This document shows positions 56,475-64,000 of a DNA stretch of 64,000 bases, piece by piece. Each line of letters starts with the position of its first letter. Position 1 is the stretch's first letter. The DNA comes from Sphingobacterium sp. (GTDB lineage: Bacteria; Bacteroidota; Bacteroidia; Sphingobacteriales; Sphingobacteriaceae): NCBI GenBank assembly GCA_031286695.1, contig JAITTY010000018.1, forward strand, positions 55,934 through 119,933, read 5' to 3'. The notes beneath the pieces were generated by a model. The model was not told where the DNA came from, did not search any database, and saw only the letters and a list, made by a program, of their open reading frames with translations. A program made the position numbers and the translations under genes.

Positions 56475-56862
56475 ATCAGTTGTATTTTTTAAGTGATAAA
56501 CAAAGTCAAGCAATTATGCTTTAATAAGCTGATTGGAGATGATTCCATTCCTCGGTCTCACGAATTACCCAGAATGATAGCTACATAATTGTTGGAGAGC
56601 ATTTCGTCAAGTCGAACTTAATAAAAAATAGTGTACTTCATACAGTGAAAATGAAATTTTTTAGGTGTAGAACTTAGGCTGCAAAGGATCATCATTTCTA
56701 GGGGTGATGAACTGTCTTATGCAAAAAATATTTTCGTCTCGAAAAGGTTTTCGTAGAAAGAACAAACGTTTGTTTGTGAAAAAGAAGTAAAAGTAAAAGA
56801 AACTTTTATTTACATTGGATAGACATTCCTAAATAGAGGAAATAAAAGAACCAATATAAATT
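56475..56862. other. Interval with the first copy of the 126-bp repeat
   Basis: 388 bases. It contains the repeat copy A (56740-56865, listed separately) and a 27-codon basic frame (56707-56790) that overlaps the repeat. No gene is supported in 56475-56706. Confidence 0.5.
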
Positions 56863-56865
56863 ATG
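56740..56865 (+). repeat. 126-bp dispersed direct repeat, copy A
   Basis: About 92% identical to 62966-63091 with one single-base insertion relative to that copy. It contains the perfect 14-bp palindrome AACAAACGTTTGTT at 56761-56774 and a weak TAAAAG/CTTTTA hairpin. It ends at an ATG (56863) just before a C39/VKOR-like gene remnant. Part of it reads as the tail of a protein ending in KRNFYLHWIDIPK before a TAG, but the frame is broken by the extra base (in AAAAAGAAGT). Confidence 0.8.
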
Positions 56866-57113
56866 ATAAGTATTCCTTTTTTTTGAAGAATAGATTGTCT
56901 AATGGTCTCCTTGAAAGTTGTTCTGAATTATTAAATCATTATAATATAAAATATACGCGGAACAAATTGAGTGAATTTTTGGAATCTCATGTGGAATATC
57001 CCTCACTTCTTGCCATTGAAGGATACCCTAAATTAATTGATGAAAGTTCGTATTATCTATTTGGTTATTTTATTTTTCATAGACGACATTCAAAGGTGGG
57101 CTATGGCATTTGA
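56863..57113 (+). pseudogene. Truncated C39-peptidase-like/VKOR gene, copy A
   Basis: The natural start is ATG 56863 (MISIPFF). The 8-T run (56877-56884) then throws the frame into a TGA; one more T would join it to the open frame that continues at 56883 (KNRLSNGLLESCSELLNHYN). Residues such as NIKYTRNKLSEFLESHVE and PSLLAI match the start of the longer protein at 63117. After about 50 codons the sequence switches at about 57018 into DNA like the start of the gene at 59301. So this is a dead, chimeric 5' fragment. Confidence 0.6.
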
Positions 57114-57132
57114 TAAAAATTTACGGTTTTGA
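57018..57132 (+). pseudogene. 5' scar of an MG2/plug-type gene
   Basis: 57030-57077 is nearly identical (about 4 differences in 48) to 59291-59338, which spans the ribosome-binding region and first codons of the second MG2/plug gene. In the matching frame ATG 57040 reads MKVRIIYLVILFF and then stops at 57130-57132. The shared segment shows that 5' ends of these paralogues have recombined here. Confidence 0.55.
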
Positions 57133-59240
57133 AGGTTAATAAATTTTTTCGTTATATCTATAATATACTTATTATTATTCTTTTGATCGGGGGGGCTGTC
57201 AGCCGGACTTTTGGTCAACAATCTGTTTCACAAATCTACCTACATACAGACCGAGCAGCGTATTTCCCCGGAGATACAGTCTGGTTTAAAGGGTATATAT
57301 TGAGGGGAGGAAAGTTAGATAGCTCGATTCGTAATCTCTATATCGATTGGGGAGATCAAACAAAAAATATCATTCAACATGATGTGTACTTAGCTGGAGA
57401 TGGGTTTTCCGTAGGACAATTCAAGATTCCGGAAAACTACAATCAGGAGGAACTTCAATTAAATGCATTCTCTTCTAAAATGGAAGGAAATGGAACAGAA
57501 GGATATTATAAATCTATTGGAATCATATATCCGAATGGCAGACAGCAGACTGCCAAAGCAGAGGAAGATCTAGCAGAGAAGACCTTGCCGATATATTCAC
57601 CGGCAACGCAAGGAGGACGAGAAAGAAATAGTTCGATGTTTATGGTTAAAACAGTTGCTGACACAACAGTGATACAGGTCAATCCTGTGACATTAAAAAA
57701 TAGATCCGTTCACCTGATTGGTATATTTCACCATAAAGAAGTTTTGAATAGAGAGATAACCCTCCGAACAGATAATATGTTAGAGCCTATTGAGGTAATG
57801 ACAAAAGGATGGGGATATGGACTTTTGCAGTTACAGATAAAAGATCATACAGGAGCAATATTAAATTTTCAGAATATCCCGATTGGGATAGACAATGTCG
57901 TTATACCACAATTGGCCACTAGCGAGGATTCCCTTTTGGTCACGCTGCCCGATGGAATATTTGGTAATATATCGCTATCTGTTACCCATAAAATAGCCCC
58001 AATTGATAGTGTACATCACATTGTCGCTGATTTATTGTTGGGTAACAATTGGAAAGCTCCATTTCCTACGATAGATATCTTAAAAGCTTCTTCTACAAGC
58101 CTAATCGGAATGTTACAAGAAAAAAGTCCTTCATACAATGATTACCTGGCGTTCACCCCACATGAAGACAAACTTTTATATCTCAGGGGCAAACTGCTTT
58201 TTAACAAGAAACAACTTGCTCGTTTTCAGCAAGAATACCATAAGCTAAAAGTAAAAAATAAAAATGTAAAGGGGATTTCTTTTGGATATAAAGAATCAAA
58301 GGACATACAGTTCCGCTATGAAACACTTTCTCTGGATACAGCTTTTCAATTTGAAGTCCCTCAATTGACTTTTTTCGATTCTCTTAAGGTTCGGCTTACA
58401 CAGATTGAACCAACATTGAGATCAATTCCATTTCAGGTGACTTATACTTTTAATCCCATGAAACCTAACGCACAACTATATACTCCATCATGGAAAAAGT
58501 GGAAAACGGAAAAGTTTTTTAAAAATGAGGAGTGGGTGCAATGGTACGGAACCTATTTGAAAAACACCAAAGAAATTCGGTTAGAGGAAGTTCAAATAAA
58601 GCGGCAAATTAGAGATCAAAGTATAACGAAATTGGAAAAAGAACATGCTATTAGCGGTATTTTTTCGGGAATTAATGCCATGAGCATAGCTGTCGAAGAT
58701 GATCCCCGTGCAGAATCCGAAATAAATATTTTTACTTATCTCCAAAATCAACTTCCATCATTAAGGATCAATACTACCGATCCACTGAGGCCACAGGTTA
58801 AAAATAATCGCGGAGGAGGAATATCTTTTTTTCTCAATGGAAGTCCATGTACCAATTTGATGGATTTGGCATTGATTCCGACAGCAGACATTTCATATGT
58901 TAAATATTTTTATCCTCCTTTTGTAGGAGATCCAAAGGGAGGAGCTGCCATTGCCGTGTATAGCAAGAAAGGAAATCCAAGAACTCGTACCCCCGATGGT
59001 GAGATTTCAGAAACATATGTGAGAGGTTATGTTAATCCGCTACCTTTTTATAAAAATAATAATTTATTGACTCCAACGCTTCTCTGGATGCCATTGCTCT
59101 TCTTATCTGCGAAAAGCGATACGATTCGAATTGGACTCGACAAATTGGACATTCAAGATGGATGGATTACTATACAAGGCGTTACAACCACAGGGAAACT
59201 TATTTTTATGCAGGAAAAGTTAAATATTTCGAATCGTTAA
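57129..59240 (+). CDS. MG2-like/TonB-plug-like exported protein, paralogue 1
   Basis: 703 residues. Signal or anchor (IYNILIIILLIGGAVSRTFGQ, about 10-30), then an MG2-like segment IYLHTDRAAYFPGDTVWFKG. A middle of immunoglobulin-like repeats follows, and near the C-terminus a plug-like block (EKEHAISGIFSGINAMSIAV, ISFFLNGSPCTNL, PPFVGDPKGGAAIAVYSKKG). There is no beta-barrel, so it is not a transporter by itself. The only available start is TTG 57129, so expression is less certain. Tandem paralogue of the next gene. Such proteins often accompany peptide-export clusters in Bacteroidota. Confidence 0.75.
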   Translation: MKVNKFFRYIYNILIIILLIGGAVSRTFGQQSVSQIYLHTDRAAYFPGDTVWFKGYILRGGKLDSSIRNLYIDWGDQTKNIIQHDVYLAGDGFSVGQFKIPENYNQEELQLNAFSSKMEGNGTEGYYKSIGIIYPNGRQQTAKAEEDLAEKTLPIYSPATQGGRERNSSMFMVKTVADTTVIQVNPVTLKNRSVHLIGIFHHKEVLNREITLRTDNMLEPIEVMTKGWGYGLLQLQIKDHTGAILNFQNIPIGIDNVVIPQLATSEDSLLVTLPDGIFGNISLSVTHKIAPIDSVHHIVADLLLGNNWKAPFPTIDILKASSTSLIGMLQEKSPSYNDYLAFTPHEDKLLYLRGKLLFNKKQLARFQQEYHKLKVKNKNVKGISFGYKESKDIQFRYETLSLDTAFQFEVPQLTFFDSLKVRLTQIEPTLRSIPFQVTYTFNPMKPNAQLYTPSWKKWKTEKFFKNEEWVQWYGTYLKNTKEIRLEEVQIKRQIRDQSITKLEKEHAISGIFSGINAMSIAVEDDPRAESEINIFTYLQNQLPSLRINTTDPLRPQVKNNRGGGISFFLNGSPCTNLMDLALIPTADISYVKYFYPPFVGDPKGGAAIAVYSKKGNPRTRTPDGEISETYVRGYVNPLPFYKNNNLLTPTLLWMPLLFLSAKSDTIRIGLDKLDIQDGWITIQGVTTTGKLIFMQEKLNISNR

Positions 59241-59280
59241 AAAAGAGACAGTACGTTTTTATTTATAAAATCAGATTCTA

Positions 59281-59287
59281 AAGGAGA
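59281..59287 (+). promoter_or_regulatory. Ribosome-binding site deciding the start of paralogue 2
   Basis: AAGGAGA at 59281-59287 is a near-perfect Shine-Dalgarno sequence, 13 bases before ATG 59301. It supports that ATG over the TTG at 59298. The homologous position in the scar near 57018 has lost this strength. Confidence 0.55.
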
Positions 59288-59300
59288 TAAAAATTAATTG

Positions 59301-61307
59301 ATGAAAGTTTTCATTATCTATTTGGCTATTTTATTTTTATGTGGAGCTACTTTTGGACAAGGTCTCAATGGAATTTATGTCCATACAGACCGAGCAGCCT
59401 ATTCGCCGGGTGATACCGTTTGGTTTAAGGGATATGTATTGAAGGATGGCCATTTAGACAGATCAGCAGTCAATCTATTTGTGGATTGGGCAGATAGTGA
59501 CACTATTATTCGGAATGACGTTTTTTTGGTTGGTGGGGGTGTTGCCCCAGGACAGTTTGTAATTCCAATAAATTACAGATATCCGATGTTGGAACTTAAT
59601 GCTTTTACCCGAAATATGGTAAGCCATAGGCACTTTGGATATTACAGGAGTCTTGTTGTGTTTCAGGACAGTCTAGAGACAGAAAATTTTCCACAGGATA
59701 CATTTCTTAAAAATTCGCTAACACCCAGTTCGGCAGATAAAAGTCATGTTGAAATGAATGTTCTTTTTCAACCGGATACGATTAAAATCTCGCTGAGATC
59801 ACTGGTTTCATATGACATACAGAATTTAATGCTGGAATGTATTTTTCAGTATGTAGAGGTTTTTTCAAATCAAATAGATCTTCAAAGTAGGGCAGAGATG
59901 ACTTTTAAGCTTCCGCGTTACGGGATTGACAGTGGCGTTTTGCAATTTCGTCTAATCAATGAAAAGAGTAGGATATTATGCCATTACGCCAAGCTTCTAA
60001 TTGATAGTTCACAAATGATTACGCCTAAGATAGGGTTCAACGGGACTGGAGAACCTACAGTCAGCCTACCGAATGGCGAGCTGGCGAACCTGTCCATCGC
60101 AATTACCAAGAAGAATACTGTAATTGGAAATTCAAAAAGCATGTATGGAGAACTGTTGTTGAATAATACGGCAGACAAAAGCTATCCCGACCTATACCAT
60201 GTCAATAACAAACAGGTCTGGCAATGGAATAACCAGGCTGAGATTCCTCAATTACGGGACAGTGTTCTTTATCTGAAAGGGAAACTGAACTTTTCAGAGA
60301 AAGTAAGCAGGCAATACGAGAAAGCACTTGCTAACCTTACCACTAAAAAGAAACGTGACTTGAGGGGACTCTCTGTGGGATTTCGTCCGCTAGCAGATAC
60401 TTTGATGCAATTTTCGGAATATACGCTAAACGTAGCCAATACCTTCGAGATACCAAATTTAACTTTTTTTGACAGTATCGAATTGCGAATCAAACAGATA
60501 GAGCCTTCTTTACAGTACTATCCGTTTGATGCTATTTGTAGTTTTTATCCTATTGAAAGACATAAAACAATATACCGTCCGTCTTGGGCAACTTTCGAAA
60601 ATCAAGAAAGCAGATTATTATCAATCGTAAATGGTAATGAGAGATCAGTAATAGAACGACGTTCTTTTCAAAATATGAGAAGATTACAAACTGTAGTTGT
60701 CAAACGAGATGTAAATACTCAACGAATTGCTTTGTTAGAAAAGGAACATGGTATTTCTGGCCCGTTCAAATCAGTCAATGCTTATGCTTTTGATGCTGCC
60801 AATGATCCGCTCATTTCCGTGTCGTCAGATGCGAGGTCTTATCTTTCCTCGAAGCTCCCCCATGTTAATATCGGTTCGGGAAGAATGAACCGTGGAGACA
60901 ATATTCGCCTTTTTATTAATGAAACACCAAGTGAATTTTCTGAATTGGAATATCTATTTGCCGATGATCTTTCTTATATAAAATTTTTCCAGCCTCCTTC
61001 AATATTAAATCCTTCCGGCGGGGCGGCCTTAGCGGTCTACACGAAAAAAGGAAATCAGTATAAGCGTAGCTCTTTGGCTAAAGCCTTCACTGCGAAGGTG
61101 ATGGGTTATACCGAACCATTGGCAAAAAGTATCAGTCTGAAAGAGGAGACAATCTATTGGCAGCCTATGGCTCTGTTGTCAGTTTTAAATCCTTATTTCA
61201 CGATTCCCTTAAATAAGAGCGAGCTTAAAAATACAACTCTTACAATAGAAGGGGTAACGGAATCGGGGAAAATAGTGTATTTACAAACAGAAATGGATAA
61301 GTTATAA
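59301..61307 (+). CDS. MG2-like/TonB-plug-like exported protein, paralogue 2
   Basis: 668 residues from ATG 59301. Signal peptide KVFIIYLAILFLCGATFGQ. IYVHTDRAAYSPGDTVWFKG is the MG2-like start. The same order of domains follows as in the gene upstream, including the plug-like EKEHGISGPFKSVNAYAFDA, IRLFINETPSEFSEL and PPSILNPSGGAALAVYTKKG. No barrel domain. About 60 bases after paralogue 1, so the two are probably one transcript. Predicted to act in the periplasm or outer membrane, perhaps as partner of an exported peptide system; the biochemical role is unknown. Confidence 0.85.
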   Translation: MKVFIIYLAILFLCGATFGQGLNGIYVHTDRAAYSPGDTVWFKGYVLKDGHLDRSAVNLFVDWADSDTIIRNDVFLVGGGVAPGQFVIPINYRYPMLELNAFTRNMVSHRHFGYYRSLVVFQDSLETENFPQDTFLKNSLTPSSADKSHVEMNVLFQPDTIKISLRSLVSYDIQNLMLECIFQYVEVFSNQIDLQSRAEMTFKLPRYGIDSGVLQFRLINEKSRILCHYAKLLIDSSQMITPKIGFNGTGEPTVSLPNGELANLSIAITKKNTVIGNSKSMYGELLLNNTADKSYPDLYHVNNKQVWQWNNQAEIPQLRDSVLYLKGKLNFSEKVSRQYEKALANLTTKKKRDLRGLSVGFRPLADTLMQFSEYTLNVANTFEIPNLTFFDSIELRIKQIEPSLQYYPFDAICSFYPIERHKTIYRPSWATFENQESRLLSIVNGNERSVIERRSFQNMRRLQTVVVKRDVNTQRIALLEKEHGISGPFKSVNAYAFDAANDPLISVSSDARSYLSSKLPHVNIGSGRMNRGDNIRLFINETPSEFSELEYLFADDLSYIKFFQPPSILNPSGGAALAVYTKKGNQYKRSSLAKAFTAKVMGYTEPLAKSISLKEETIYWQPMALLSVLNPYFTIPLNKSELKNTTLTIEGVTESGKIVYLQTEMDKL

Positions 61308-61440
61308 TAAAATTTGTGTGTAATTCTATTATTAAAAACTCCTTATAAAACAATAACAATTATTGCTGCTGCTTTTACAACCGGAGTTAGGATTGATCTC
61401 ATCTGTGGGACAATTATTATTTATAAAGTTTTTAAAATGA

Positions 61441-61480
61441 TCAAAGCAGGCAAAACTTATGGCTGCTTTGAATTTGGCCT
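61441..61480 (+). terminator. Possible terminator downstream of paralogue 2
   Basis: TCAAAGCAG (61441-61449) pairs perfectly with CTGCTTTGA (61463-61471), a 13-base loop between. The tail ATTTGGCCTTTT is only weakly U-rich, so efficiency is doubtful. It lies 134 bases after the stop. Confidence 0.5.
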
Positions 61481-61659
61481 TTTCGGTATCCTAAAATACA
61501 GTATAATGTATTAATCCAACTATGTTTCTATCGTCGAGAATAAAAGGTGCTGTATTGAGGGAGGGTTACCGATTTAAGTTTTCTCTTGTCGATATAGGGT
61601 TGCTGTCGCTTGCTCTAGTGTATCGTCCTGTTATGGGTTTACATAAATGAGAAGCCATC

Positions 61660-62093
61660 TCATAGGTTCCTGTATTGATCCTGCAGTTGCTTGCCGTCCA
61701 TCTGGAAGAATAATCCTACTAATTGGGAATTTACAGGATAGTTATCCAAATATCTTCTTTAAAAAAAACCCGAATTCAGTAGTCATTCGAGTCCCCTCAC
61801 GTACCAGGTTCCAATCTCTTGTGATAATCTGTCCCGTATCTAATAGTGTCCAGCGACGGGCGGATGTGTAGCGTAACTTTCTGACCTATAATAGGAAAAT
61901 CGGAAATCTCGGTGGAAGGCATAAAGCCCTTGGACTCTAACTTGCTATTCTCATAGCCCGCTGGAGCAATATTAAGCTCATCTAAATAAATGTGCAGCTG
62001 ATTGTCAACCTGATCGACTTCTAAAATCTGGAAATACTCTAAAAGCCCTTCGGGCATCAACAGGGATAGTAACTTACGTTCGGCCTCTTGCAA
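61660..62093 (-). mobile_element. Remnant of an ISAon1-type insertion sequence
   Basis: The minus strand encodes the N-terminal transposase ORF of ISAon1-type elements: LLSLLMPEGLLEYFQILEVD and the later FPIIGQKVTLHIR. At about 61858-61863 the expected HIRRRW reading is lost by a one-base shift. Restoring it gives WTLLDTGQIITRDWNLV, then EGTRMTTEF and FFLKKIFG to a stop at 61742. A partly overlapping second frame then reads YPVNSQLVGLFFQMDGKQLQ, the typical start of ORF2, and stops at 61660 after about 28 codons. The rest of ORF2, with the catalytic domain, is absent. The element is dead. Confidence 0.75.
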
Positions 62094-62265
62094 TGTTATA
62101 TGTATTAAAGTGGTTAAACTAGGAAATTTCTAGAATTCCCCCAAGAATTCTGCTTGATCCGCTTGTTCTCTATGTCCCAATTTTAAGGAAGAATAAAGAT
62201 ACCTGTGGTCAGTTCGCAGTACTTTCCTGAAACTGTGGTTTGGTAATTCTGAGAAGAGTGGTAAC

Positions 62266-62290
62266 GTTAAACAAACTTATTTTGTTTAAC
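62266..62290. repeat. Perfect 10-bp inverted repeat
   Basis: GTTAAACAAA, 5-base loop, TTTGTTTAAC. No T tail, so it is more likely an element end or protein site than a terminator. Confidence 0.5.
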
Positions 62291-62323
62291 CCTTTGATCA
62301 ATTTCACAAATAAATTATTACGC

Positions 62324-62368
62324 GGTTAGCAAATATATGCAATGGAACTGCTAACCGGAATGCTAACC
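62324..62368. repeat. GGTTAGCA/TGCTAACC repeats, candidate integrase arm sites
   Basis: GGTTAGCA at 62324-62331 and inverted copies TGCTAACC at 62349-62356 and 62361-62368. Such short repeats next to a tRNA fragment resemble arm-type binding sites of tyrosine integrases. No integrase gene is present. Confidence 0.35.
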
Positions 62369-62460
62369 ATTTAGTTTGTATTTGCGGATATTGGGGTGTA
62401 TTGAAAATCTTTAAATAGGCTGGAAAAAATACCGTTTAAACGAAAATAGTGCGCCTTTTG

Positions 62461-62486
62461 TGATCCCGCTAGAATTCGAACCCAGC
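62461..62486 (-). other. tRNA 3'-end-like fragment, candidate attachment-site scar
   Basis: The minus strand reads GGGTTCGAATTCTAGCGGG, like the T-arm (TTCGAAT loop) and acceptor 3' strand of a tRNA. No matching 5' acceptor strand, D-arm or anticodon arm lies upstream on that strand, so this is only a fragment. Integration of elements into tRNA genes leaves such copies. Confidence 0.35.
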
Positions 62487-62505
62487 CCGAAAATCCGCAA
62501 AATAA

Positions 62506-62800
62506 AGGGAGGAACGATATAGTGGTGGAATAACCAAGCTTTTATTGGGTATTATAGCTCAAAATCTTTTAATAGTGCTATGGCGGTTTGATCTATGAAT
62601 CTTCAAAACTATATGGTTCATTCTGTTAAAATGTTATGATCTTTGTCAATCTAGAGGATTAGAAAATATTAGTATTTCTTTTGATGAAAAATTAAGTGAT
62701 CGGATTTGTGATATCAACGAAGATAAATTACTTTGGAGATAGTTATTTATCTGATTTAGCTCGTTTTGGAAATGGGAGGAGCGATCTAATTGGCTATTAA
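62506..62800 (+). pseudogene. Coding traces of an unrecognised gene
   Basis: One frame is open from 62506 to 62742 except for a TGA at 62596. It reads for example CYDLCQSRGLENISISFDEK and LSDRICDINEDKLLW. A second frame continues from about 62720 as YFGDSYLSDLARFGNGRSDL up to 62800. Together they suggest a frameshifted remnant, but the DNA is AT-rich and no family is recognised. Confidence 0.2.
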
Positions 62801-62965
62801 AACTGTTTTGATAATTTTCTGATAGATATTGAATGAAAAATCATTTCCAAGGGGAGATAAGATAAATAATTTTTAGAAAAAAAATACCAAAATATTTTAA
62901 AAAACCTATCAATGGTTAATTTTATTTTTAATTTAGCACATCGTTCTCGAGATAAATTTCTGTAG

Positions 62966-63091
62966 CGAAAAGGTTTTCGTAGAAAGAACAAACGTTTGTT
63001 TTTGAAAAAAAGTAAAAGTAAAAGAAATTTTTATCTACATTGGGTAGACATTCCTAAATAAGGGAAAATAAAAGAACCAATGTAAATTATG
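62966..63091 (+). repeat. 126-bp dispersed direct repeat, copy B
   Basis: Second copy of the element at 56740-56865. It has the same palindrome AACAAACGTTTGTT (62987-63000) and ends at an ATG 26 bases before the VKOR-type gene start. Here the frame from 62966 stays open (RKGFRRKNKRLFLKKSKS, then KRNFYLHWVDIPK) up to TAA 63059-63061. A TAG stands directly before the repeat, so no full gene is present. Confidence 0.8.
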
Positions 63092-63116
63092 TTAAACAAC
63101 CAATTTCTCATATATT

Positions 63117-63914
63117 ATGAATCTATTCAAATCTATACATCCTTCTTATGAGGGAAATATTTTAAAAGTTTGCAGATCTGTACTGGATATTTTTGACGTA
63201 AGGTCTACCAAAACATTTATAAAAAAAATAATTGATAATCATTTAGATCCGGGTTCACTTTTGGCTGTAACAGACATATTGAGCGAATATGGCGTGGAAA
63301 CAGTAGCCGTAAAAAAAGGAGATTATCAGTATTCTGATTTTGAATTGCCTTTTATTTGTTGTATTCAGGAAGAAGGTTGGAGTCAAGCAGGTTTTGTTTT
63401 AGTCAAAGATGTAAATGGTGATAATATAAAATATCTTGATCCCAGTGATAATCATTTTAAATATCTCTCTTCGACGGGCTTTGAGAATATCGACAAAGGT
63501 ATTATTTTACTGTTGGATGAATCTAATAAAAGAGACGAAATTGATTATAGAAAACACTTAGAAAATGAGAGAACTTCTTATTGGATTTCAAAATTGCCTC
63601 TTTTATTAGTTTCTATGACTGTAATGTTTCCAATATGCTCAAAAATATTTTTGAGTGAGAGTATTCCTTGGGAAAGTCTGATATTTTTGGCAACTTCTTT
63701 GGTAGGGGCTTTTGTTTCCATATTGCTGTTATGGCATGAAGTCGATGCATTTAATCCTTTTATTAGAGAAGTATGTGGAGGATTAGGTAAGAAAACAAAT
63801 TGTCATGCTGTATTAGCCTCCAAAGGAGCTTCATTTTTAGGAGTCAGTTGGTCTATTTGGGGAGCTAGTTATTTCTTTACATTGACACTGTCTCATAAAG
63901 TGTGTAAGTTATAG
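63117..63914 (+). CDS. C39-like/VKOR-domain protein, copy B, apparently C-terminally truncated
   Basis: 265 residues. The N-terminus (about 10-150) has a C39-peptidase-like layout: DPGSLLAVTDILSEYGVETV, ELPFICCIQEEGWSQAGFVL and YLDPSDNHFKYLS. The His expected before the FVL strand is Gln or Ala here, so proteolysis is doubtful. Two membrane helices follow (about 157-215). Then comes the first half of a VKOR domain with its loop Cys pair (EVCGGLGKKTNCHAVL) and SWSIWGASYFFTLTLS. The CxxC of the last helix and any thioredoxin domain are missing; a stop and terminator follow directly. It may be a shortened or decayed relative of proteins that oxidise exported peptides. Confidence 0.7.
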   Translation: MNLFKSIHPSYEGNILKVCRSVLDIFDVRSTKTFIKKIIDNHLDPGSLLAVTDILSEYGVETVAVKKGDYQYSDFELPFICCIQEEGWSQAGFVLVKDVNGDNIKYLDPSDNHFKYLSSTGFENIDKGIILLLDESNKRDEIDYRKHLENERTSYWISKLPLLLVSMTVMFPICSKIFLSESIPWESLIFLATSLVGAFVSILLLWHEVDAFNPFIREVCGGLGKKTNCHAVLASKGASFLGVSWSIWGASYFFTLTLSHKVCKL

Positions 63915-63948
63915 AAATGCGGAGTTTACAAGGACTTCGCATTTTTTA
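63915..63948 (+). terminator. Terminator directly after the VKOR-type gene
   Basis: AAATGCGGAG (63915-63924) pairs with CTTCGCATTT (63935-63944) with one G-T pair, then more T. It starts at the base after the stop codon. Confidence 0.8.
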
Positions 63949-63968
63949 TTTATTAACTTTATAAGAGT

Positions 63969-64000
63969 ATGATTGACAAGGAGTCACTATTAAACGACAA
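63969..64000 (+). CDS. Possible start of a further gene (cut by window end)
   Basis: ATG 63969 reads MIDKESLLND to the window edge. Only ten codons are visible, and the spacing after the terminator fits a new gene. No identity can be given. Confidence 0.25.
   Translation, partial: MIDKESLLND

Follow-up and report, generated by a model that had tools for sequence, protein, structure and literature searches.

We describe here what is, judged by its gene content, the upstream end of a single RiPP/bacteriocin-type peptide maturation and export cluster in Sphingobacterium, interrupted by one insertion sequence. The stretch analysed (the window) comprises 64,000 nucleotides. The explanation that we favour overall, and regard as quite probable on sequence evidence, is that of an IS-split peptide cluster in which a C39-like/VKOR/DsbA-like oxidase would dock the leader of the peptide before an exporter cuts it. 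An apparently decaying island, as an earlier note on this DNA had described it, thereby becomes a cluster with one clear lesion.

The frame at 63117-63914 ends within a VKOR domain (Pfam VKOR positions 2-70 of 134), as the earlier note had observed; the cause, however, is not decay but the insertion of an IS, whose sequence forms the final codons of the frame (from 63884 on). The window ends inside this element, at the end of contig C20; contigs C4, C15 and C21 each have the last 117-119 bases of the window at one end, too, with 99-100% identity. The remainder of the IS was found at the end of contig C2, which, read in reverse, continues with the right repeat of the element, the octamer TTTACATT and then the missing half of the gene; 71 identical bases are common to C20 and C2. 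The element was assigned to the IS256 type by its Mutator-type transposase (400 aa, PF00872, E 3.5e-111), its terminal inverted repeats and its 8-bp target duplication. The two gene halves match adjoining stretches of a profile built from 14 intact relatives (window, positions 11-256; C2, positions 256-544), and the C2 half carries the VKOR CPLC, CGPC and the DsbA-like domain. The frame in the window is thus no full-length member of its own family (positions 11-256 of 544), and apart from the IS the gene is continuous. A Pfam VKOR search of the whole genome (E <= 0.001) returned one match, the window half; since the C2 half was missed by this search, another divergent VKOR may exist in the genome.

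On the sequence of both contig ends, then, the contig break is the IS256-type element in the oxidase gene, the adjacency of C20 and C2 in this draft assembly resting on the 8-bp duplication and on gene continuity. That the cell has an unbroken gene, to which the assembler wrongly joined an IS end, appears highly improbable: the window does end at a contig end within a multicopy IS, but the 8 bp duplicated on both flanks are what real transposition leaves, two other left/right pairs (C4/C8 and C15/C6, read by eye) show 8-bp duplications of their own, and the IS begins at the identical base in all four left ends seen. For the left end on C21 no right-end partner was found. The insertion in the oxidase gene is probably young, and because it interrupts this gene, the first enzyme gene of the cluster, this strain should either lack the product or make it unoxidised. 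IS copies also account for three contig breaks (C20/C2, C4/C8 and C15/C6), the 8-bp duplications giving the contig order.

Table 1. Coordinates of the features discussed (window positions unless a contig locus is given)
Feature	Position	Strand	Remarks
Leader copy 1	56740..56869	+	CGAAAA-GG-TTTTCG inverted repeat, palindrome AACAAACGTTTGTT, followed by an A-rich stretch; 92% to copy 2
C39-like N-terminal remnant, ~46 codons of the C39-like/VKOR family	56883..57032	+	Profile E 4.5e-11, positions 7-52
Start region of the second MG2-type gene, 48-bp copy	57030..57077	+	Abuts the C39 remnant; 92% to 59291-59338
MG2-type protein a, 703 aa	57129..59240	+	Other Sphingobacterium genomes encode homologues; Pfam MG2 match (E 1.8e-4) below cut-off
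MG2-type protein b, 669 aa	59298..61307	+	34% to protein a; Pfam MG2 E 7.2e-4, below cut-off
ISAon1-type transposase N-terminal protein, fragment	61797..62093	-	NF049916, 82.7 bits (cut-off 55)
Leader copy 2	62966..63095	+	Upstream of the C39-like/VKOR gene; motif also 5' of the C39-like/VKOR gene of G051 (S. detergens)
C39-like/VKOR/DsbA-like gene, 5' half	63117..63883	+	Profile positions 11-256 of 544
Target duplication, 8 bp, TTTACATT	63876..63883	+	Recurs on C2, directly beyond the right end of the IS
IS256-type element, left end	63884..64000	+	Element of ~1341 bp, a length that assumes the C2 copy to be the one inserted in this gene; intact 400-aa transposase frame on C2
C39-like/VKOR/DsbA-like gene, 3' half, contig C2	L017:17827-18705	-	Profile positions 256-544
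p501 + p286	L017:12591-14972		No useful Pfam match for either family

After the oxidase half, contig C2 carries, all as open frames, genes for a peptide precursor, a TlpA-type thioredoxin, a DUF5672 protein, a 173-aa protein, the p501 and p286 proteins, a GT2 protein, a GT10-like protein, a C39 peptidase-ABC exporter and an HlyD protein; the genes downstream of HlyD are, from a reading of their frames, of housekeeping type. The ABC transporter, HlyD protein, thioredoxin and double-glycine peptide for which the earlier note had suggested searching beyond position 64000 are therefore each present, and the precursor that it had failed to identify lies directly after the oxidase half: 81 aa, with the double-glycine leader MKKISLKNLNLKEVEQLSRVQLKSVLGG and a 53-aa core containing six Cys. 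BLAST comparison of this precursor with those of relatives gave 37-79% identity over 27-78 aa, mostly in the leader, and its TIGR04149 score (23.0 bits) fell below the cut-off of 25. The exporter matches Pfam C39 (E 1.2e-35) and ABC domains and possesses the catalytic Cys, His and Asp. A double-glycine precursor beside maturation genes and an exporter with catalytic residues are the features of a double-glycine RiPP/bacteriocin-type cluster.

The remaining C2 proteins are less readily classified. The TlpA-type thioredoxin has a DUF4369-like part below cut-off and, by eye, a signal-like start, and the Pfam GT10 match of the GT10-like protein is also below cut-off. Neither p501 nor p286 gave a useful Pfam match (weak, above E 0.04), the p501 profile returned no match when searched against PDB sequences, and the idea that p286 is a LanC-like protein found no support and was rejected. 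The p501 family contains a conserved YHDSD motif of glycosyltransferase-like appearance. Since p501 and p286 are unmatched and GT10 is below cut-off, glycosylation is suggested by the neighbouring genes only.

Intact counterparts of the interrupted gene, which the earlier note had proposed to seek in related genomes, were found within the genus. Matches to the N-terminal half at E <= 1e-10 were found in 16 of 119 genomes (this one included), all Sphingobacterium, among them S. multivorum, S. faecium and S. detergens. Sixteen genus stretches of 14-20 kb each were compared, a set that excludes the G003 site and the second G022 site; an intact gene of 527-550 aa is present in 14, and in the other two the gene is broken (G069) or a fragment (G042:C50). 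The oxidase homologue of G069 (S. alimentarium, L050) is, like that of our strain, a broken gene, its frame lying in three pieces.

A named set of 76 loci was drawn from 80 of 177 confirmed stretches, with a single non-Bacteroidota title (L126). In the 58 of these loci that span at least 15 kb, we found a GG leader in 46, an exporter in 50, and TlpA-like and HlyD proteins in 46 and 43, respectively, the last two being broad families whose counts stand without a random-region control. Other partners are scarcer in the same 58 loci: GT25 in 14, GT2 in 6, GT10 in 3, p501 and p286 in 8 each, an MG2-type gene in 4 and DUF5672 in none. Across all 76, p501 and p286 occur together, in the same eight loci (L076, L082, L084, L086, L089, L118, L123 and L148). 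With a leader profile made from genus precursors and applied at a lenient cut-off (E 0.5), 108 leader hits were obtained, of which 63, in 52 of the 76 loci, lie on the oxidase strand no more than 1.5 kb downstream and 9 lie within 1.5 kb upstream of the oxidase on either strand, the end of the oxidase gene being set to a typical value for many loci. Automatic cutting at GG yielded usable cores for 55 of the 63 downstream hits; the Cys number is even in 53 (six in 36, eight in 9, four in 4, ten in 3 and sixteen in 1) and odd in 2, counts that are not independent given the relatedness of the genomes. In another genome of the same class (L181), two separate frames, of 175 aa and 383 aa, encode the C39-like and the VKOR-DsbA part, respectively.

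The N-terminal domain of the oxidase deserves its earlier label of C39-like, and the family profile still matches the ComA peptidase (E 3.8e-6), but the catalytic residues are gone. When these domains and the exporters were aligned together, the catalytic Cys and His were each found in 0 of 89 VKOR-fused domains and the Asp in 39 of 89, the 89 rows being our own gene, 14 from the genus and 74 from the named set, with overlapping genomes (~83 distinct). In contrast, Cys, His and Asp are all present in 46 of 46 peptidase-ABC exporters in the same alignment, our own included. By its residues, therefore, the VKOR-fused domain is not an active C39 protease, with the qualification that a Cys within 4 columns of the catalytic one (4 of 89) or a His within 3 columns (8 of 89) could be a shifted catalytic residue. 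C39-like domains of HlyB-type exporters, which have the C39 fold with no catalytic Cys, recruit substrate without cutting it, according to the available part of one report (PMC6363468); those domains are fused to an ABC transporter, whereas the one described here is fused to a disulfide oxidase.

The seven Cys of the VKOR/DsbA-like part are all conserved in 74 of 74 named relatives, and both the VKOR loop Cys pair and the CxxC were recognized, divided in our own gene between the two halves. Six hydrophobic segments were derived from 12 of 14 aligned relatives after merging of overlapping windows, one more than in the VKOR/thioredoxin plan; the third of them (TM2, the second VKOR segment) is weakly hydrophobic, exceeding the threshold in 51 of 74, which makes the count of six uncertain. 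VKOR/thioredoxin fusions such as PDB 4nv6 share the VKOR core, the loop Cys pair, the CxxC and the thioredoxin-type domain behind, but differ in having neither the N-terminal C39-like domain nor the extra hydrophobic segment.

In all 74 fusions, Lys and Arg are denser on the CxxC loop than on the other three short loops. The same loop was the more positive in 15 of 15 C39 fusions in a joint alignment (13 of the 74 plus two further), as opposed to 1 of 27 VKORs of the same phylum that lack C39; these controls, taken from 30 loci, comprised 9 lone VKORs (the loop more positive in 1 and less so in 8), 13 VKOR-DsbA proteins (0 of 13), in which the charge pattern is thus opposite to that of the fusions, and 5 others (0 of 5). 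The separate-frame VKOR-DsbA of L181 falls marginally on the side of the fusions (0.059 versus 0.054), and our own protein shows a small exception to the pattern, with two Arg after the CPLC-bearing segment. Taken with the positive-inside rule, the charge pattern would place the CxxC, DsbA-like and C39-like domains in the cytoplasm. A standard topology, in which the VKOR site and the DsbA-like domain are periplasmic and either the C39-like domain lies on that side too or the first hydrophobic segment is not membrane-spanning, is a serious possibility, if short of probable. Well-studied bacterial VKOR/DsbA pairs work outside, the TlpA-type protein of the cluster has its signal-like start, and the weak second VKOR segment leaves room for a different segment count; against it stand the Lys and Arg enrichment in every fusion, its near absence from VKORs that lack C39 and an N-terminal domain in which no signal peptide was seen by eye. 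An archaeal VKOR, that of Aeropyrum pernix, reportedly acts in two compartments.

Combining these observations, we propose that the C39-like domain, devoid of protease residues, would hold the double-glycine leader, analogous to substrate recruitment by HlyB, while the VKOR and DsbA-like parts fused to it would draw on quinone to form the disulfides of the core, perhaps at the cytoplasmic face of the membrane. Sugars may be attached to the peptide by the glycosyltransferase-type proteins, and the exporter, with its intact protease residues, would cut after GG and export the product together with HlyD. A more specific version, which we put forward tentatively as possible rather than probable, is that the fusion is an inside-facing disulfide machine, widespread in Sphingobacteria/Chitinophagia, in which the leader is docked in the cytoplasm and the core oxidised by an inverted VKOR before export, and which in this strain is switched on or off by the young IS256-type insertion. 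If so, disulfides would be made ahead of transport rather than after it, the substrate class would be named as mostly six-Cys double-glycine peptides, and a family found in at least 76 loci would show a division of labour between a docking oxidase and a cutting exporter. It would be unusual in bacteria, to our knowledge, for disulfides to be formed on the cytoplasmic side in a step coupled to export. No published role for the C39-like/VKOR/DsbA-like fusion was found among the matches listed, in a search that covered little of the subscription literature.

The cluster resembles two known systems in part. Thermoglycocin, a glycocin, has a Gram-positive host. From the accessible portion of its description (PMC12457901), the likeness to glycocins lies in a glycosyltransferase, two thioredoxin-like proteins, a C39 exporter and three disulfides; thermoglycocin, however, has ThgS as its one glycosyltransferase, and its precursor lacks the usual double-glycine motif. 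The oxidase here differs from those of glycocins in being a C39-like/VKOR/DsbA-like fusion, and the GT2 protein scored 14.7 bits against a cut-off of 350 for the SunS-type S-glycosyltransferase that marks a glycocin. Bacteroidetocin regions, as far as covered by the available text of Coyne 2019 (PMC6671954), likewise combine a double-glycine leader, a Cys-paired core, a thiol oxidoreductase gene, whose deletion attenuates activity, and a peptidase-ABC exporter. In the same text the region consists of four genes, including one for a TM protein, with no glycosyltransferase, HlyD or C39-like/VKOR fusion named, and the mature peptide has 42 aa and four Cys, compared with the 53-aa core and six Cys found here. 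Bacteroidales clusters with C39 exporters and glycosyltransferases have also been reported, VKOR being absent from the part of that text available (PMC10352776).

Two leader copies, given as 126 bp in the earlier note, are indeed present, each of ~130 bp (92% identity over 131 columns, E 9.7e-49). Their palindrome we presume to resemble LacI-type sites. With up to 3 mismatches, the core motif CGAAAAGGTNTTCGTANNNAGANCAAACGTTTGT was found in 2 of 119 genomes, twice in our own (both in the window) and once in G051 (S. detergens), upstream of its C39-like/VKOR gene; a backward control pattern of the motif gave no matches in the 119 genomes. The motif looks like an operator, so far a putative one, and both leaders would be control elements of the peptide cluster, a proposal made within our preferred explanation. 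Copy 1 now precedes the C39-like remnant and the MG2-type genes. The leader as a general motif of such clusters was rejected, only those two genomes carrying the core motif; by blastn (E below 1e-3) it matched 1 of the 16 genus stretches, L038.

The first C39-like gene was correctly described in the earlier note as reduced to about 50 codons: against the 544-position intact-family profile the remnant matches positions 7-52 (E 4.5e-11, database size set to 14), which identifies it as a genuine C39-like N-terminus of ~46 residues. The further claim, that the whole C39/VKOR locus was segmentally duplicated and that both copies then decayed, is largely refuted for the genes, and we consider it unlikely overall. 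The near identity of the leaders, the one short C39-like remnant and the tandem MG2-type genes with their duplicated 48-bp start speak for it. Yet the two C39-like frames share only 24% identity over 37 aa, the remnant is nearer to genes of other species (with the S. multivorum homologue it shares 44% over 48 aa), and a single IS accounts for the break in the second copy. Similarity also ends sharply at the leader edges: 20-bp blocks inside the repeat are 85-100% identical, the block straddling the 3' edge 65% and those outside 35-50%. The remnant runs into the 48-bp copy of the MG2-type start, and a rearrangement therefore occurred here, yet no recent copying of the gene.

Between the leader copies lies the pair that had been termed MG2/plug paralogues. 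Two paralogues with 34% identity are present, but their Pfam MG2 scores (22.3 and 20.3) are below the 32.8-bit cut-off, and a Pfam search of both proteins matched no plug domain, so that "plug" was not confirmed. No other MG2-type matches were found in the genome at E <= 1e-20. The link between VKOR-C39 fusions and such outer-membrane proteins, drawn in the earlier note, is real but uncommon. Among the 58 long loci, the MG2-type gene lies directly after the precursor in L088 and L107, starts ~0.6 kb after the oxidase in L151, where the leader profile found no precursor in between, and is ~6 kb away in L104; the Sphingobacterium locus L045 (genome G043) also carries one, so the C39-like and MG2-type genes do co-occur. 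Both families are present in six genomes, adjacent in two (our own and G043) and on different contigs of draft assemblies in four (G010, G025, G051 and G063). The MG2-type genes were accordingly rejected as a typical partner of the cluster and retained as an occasional one; by inference, their products may be its outer-membrane partner. The ISAon1-type fragment that lies after the MG2-type genes and before leader copy 2 is a second mobile-element trace in the window.
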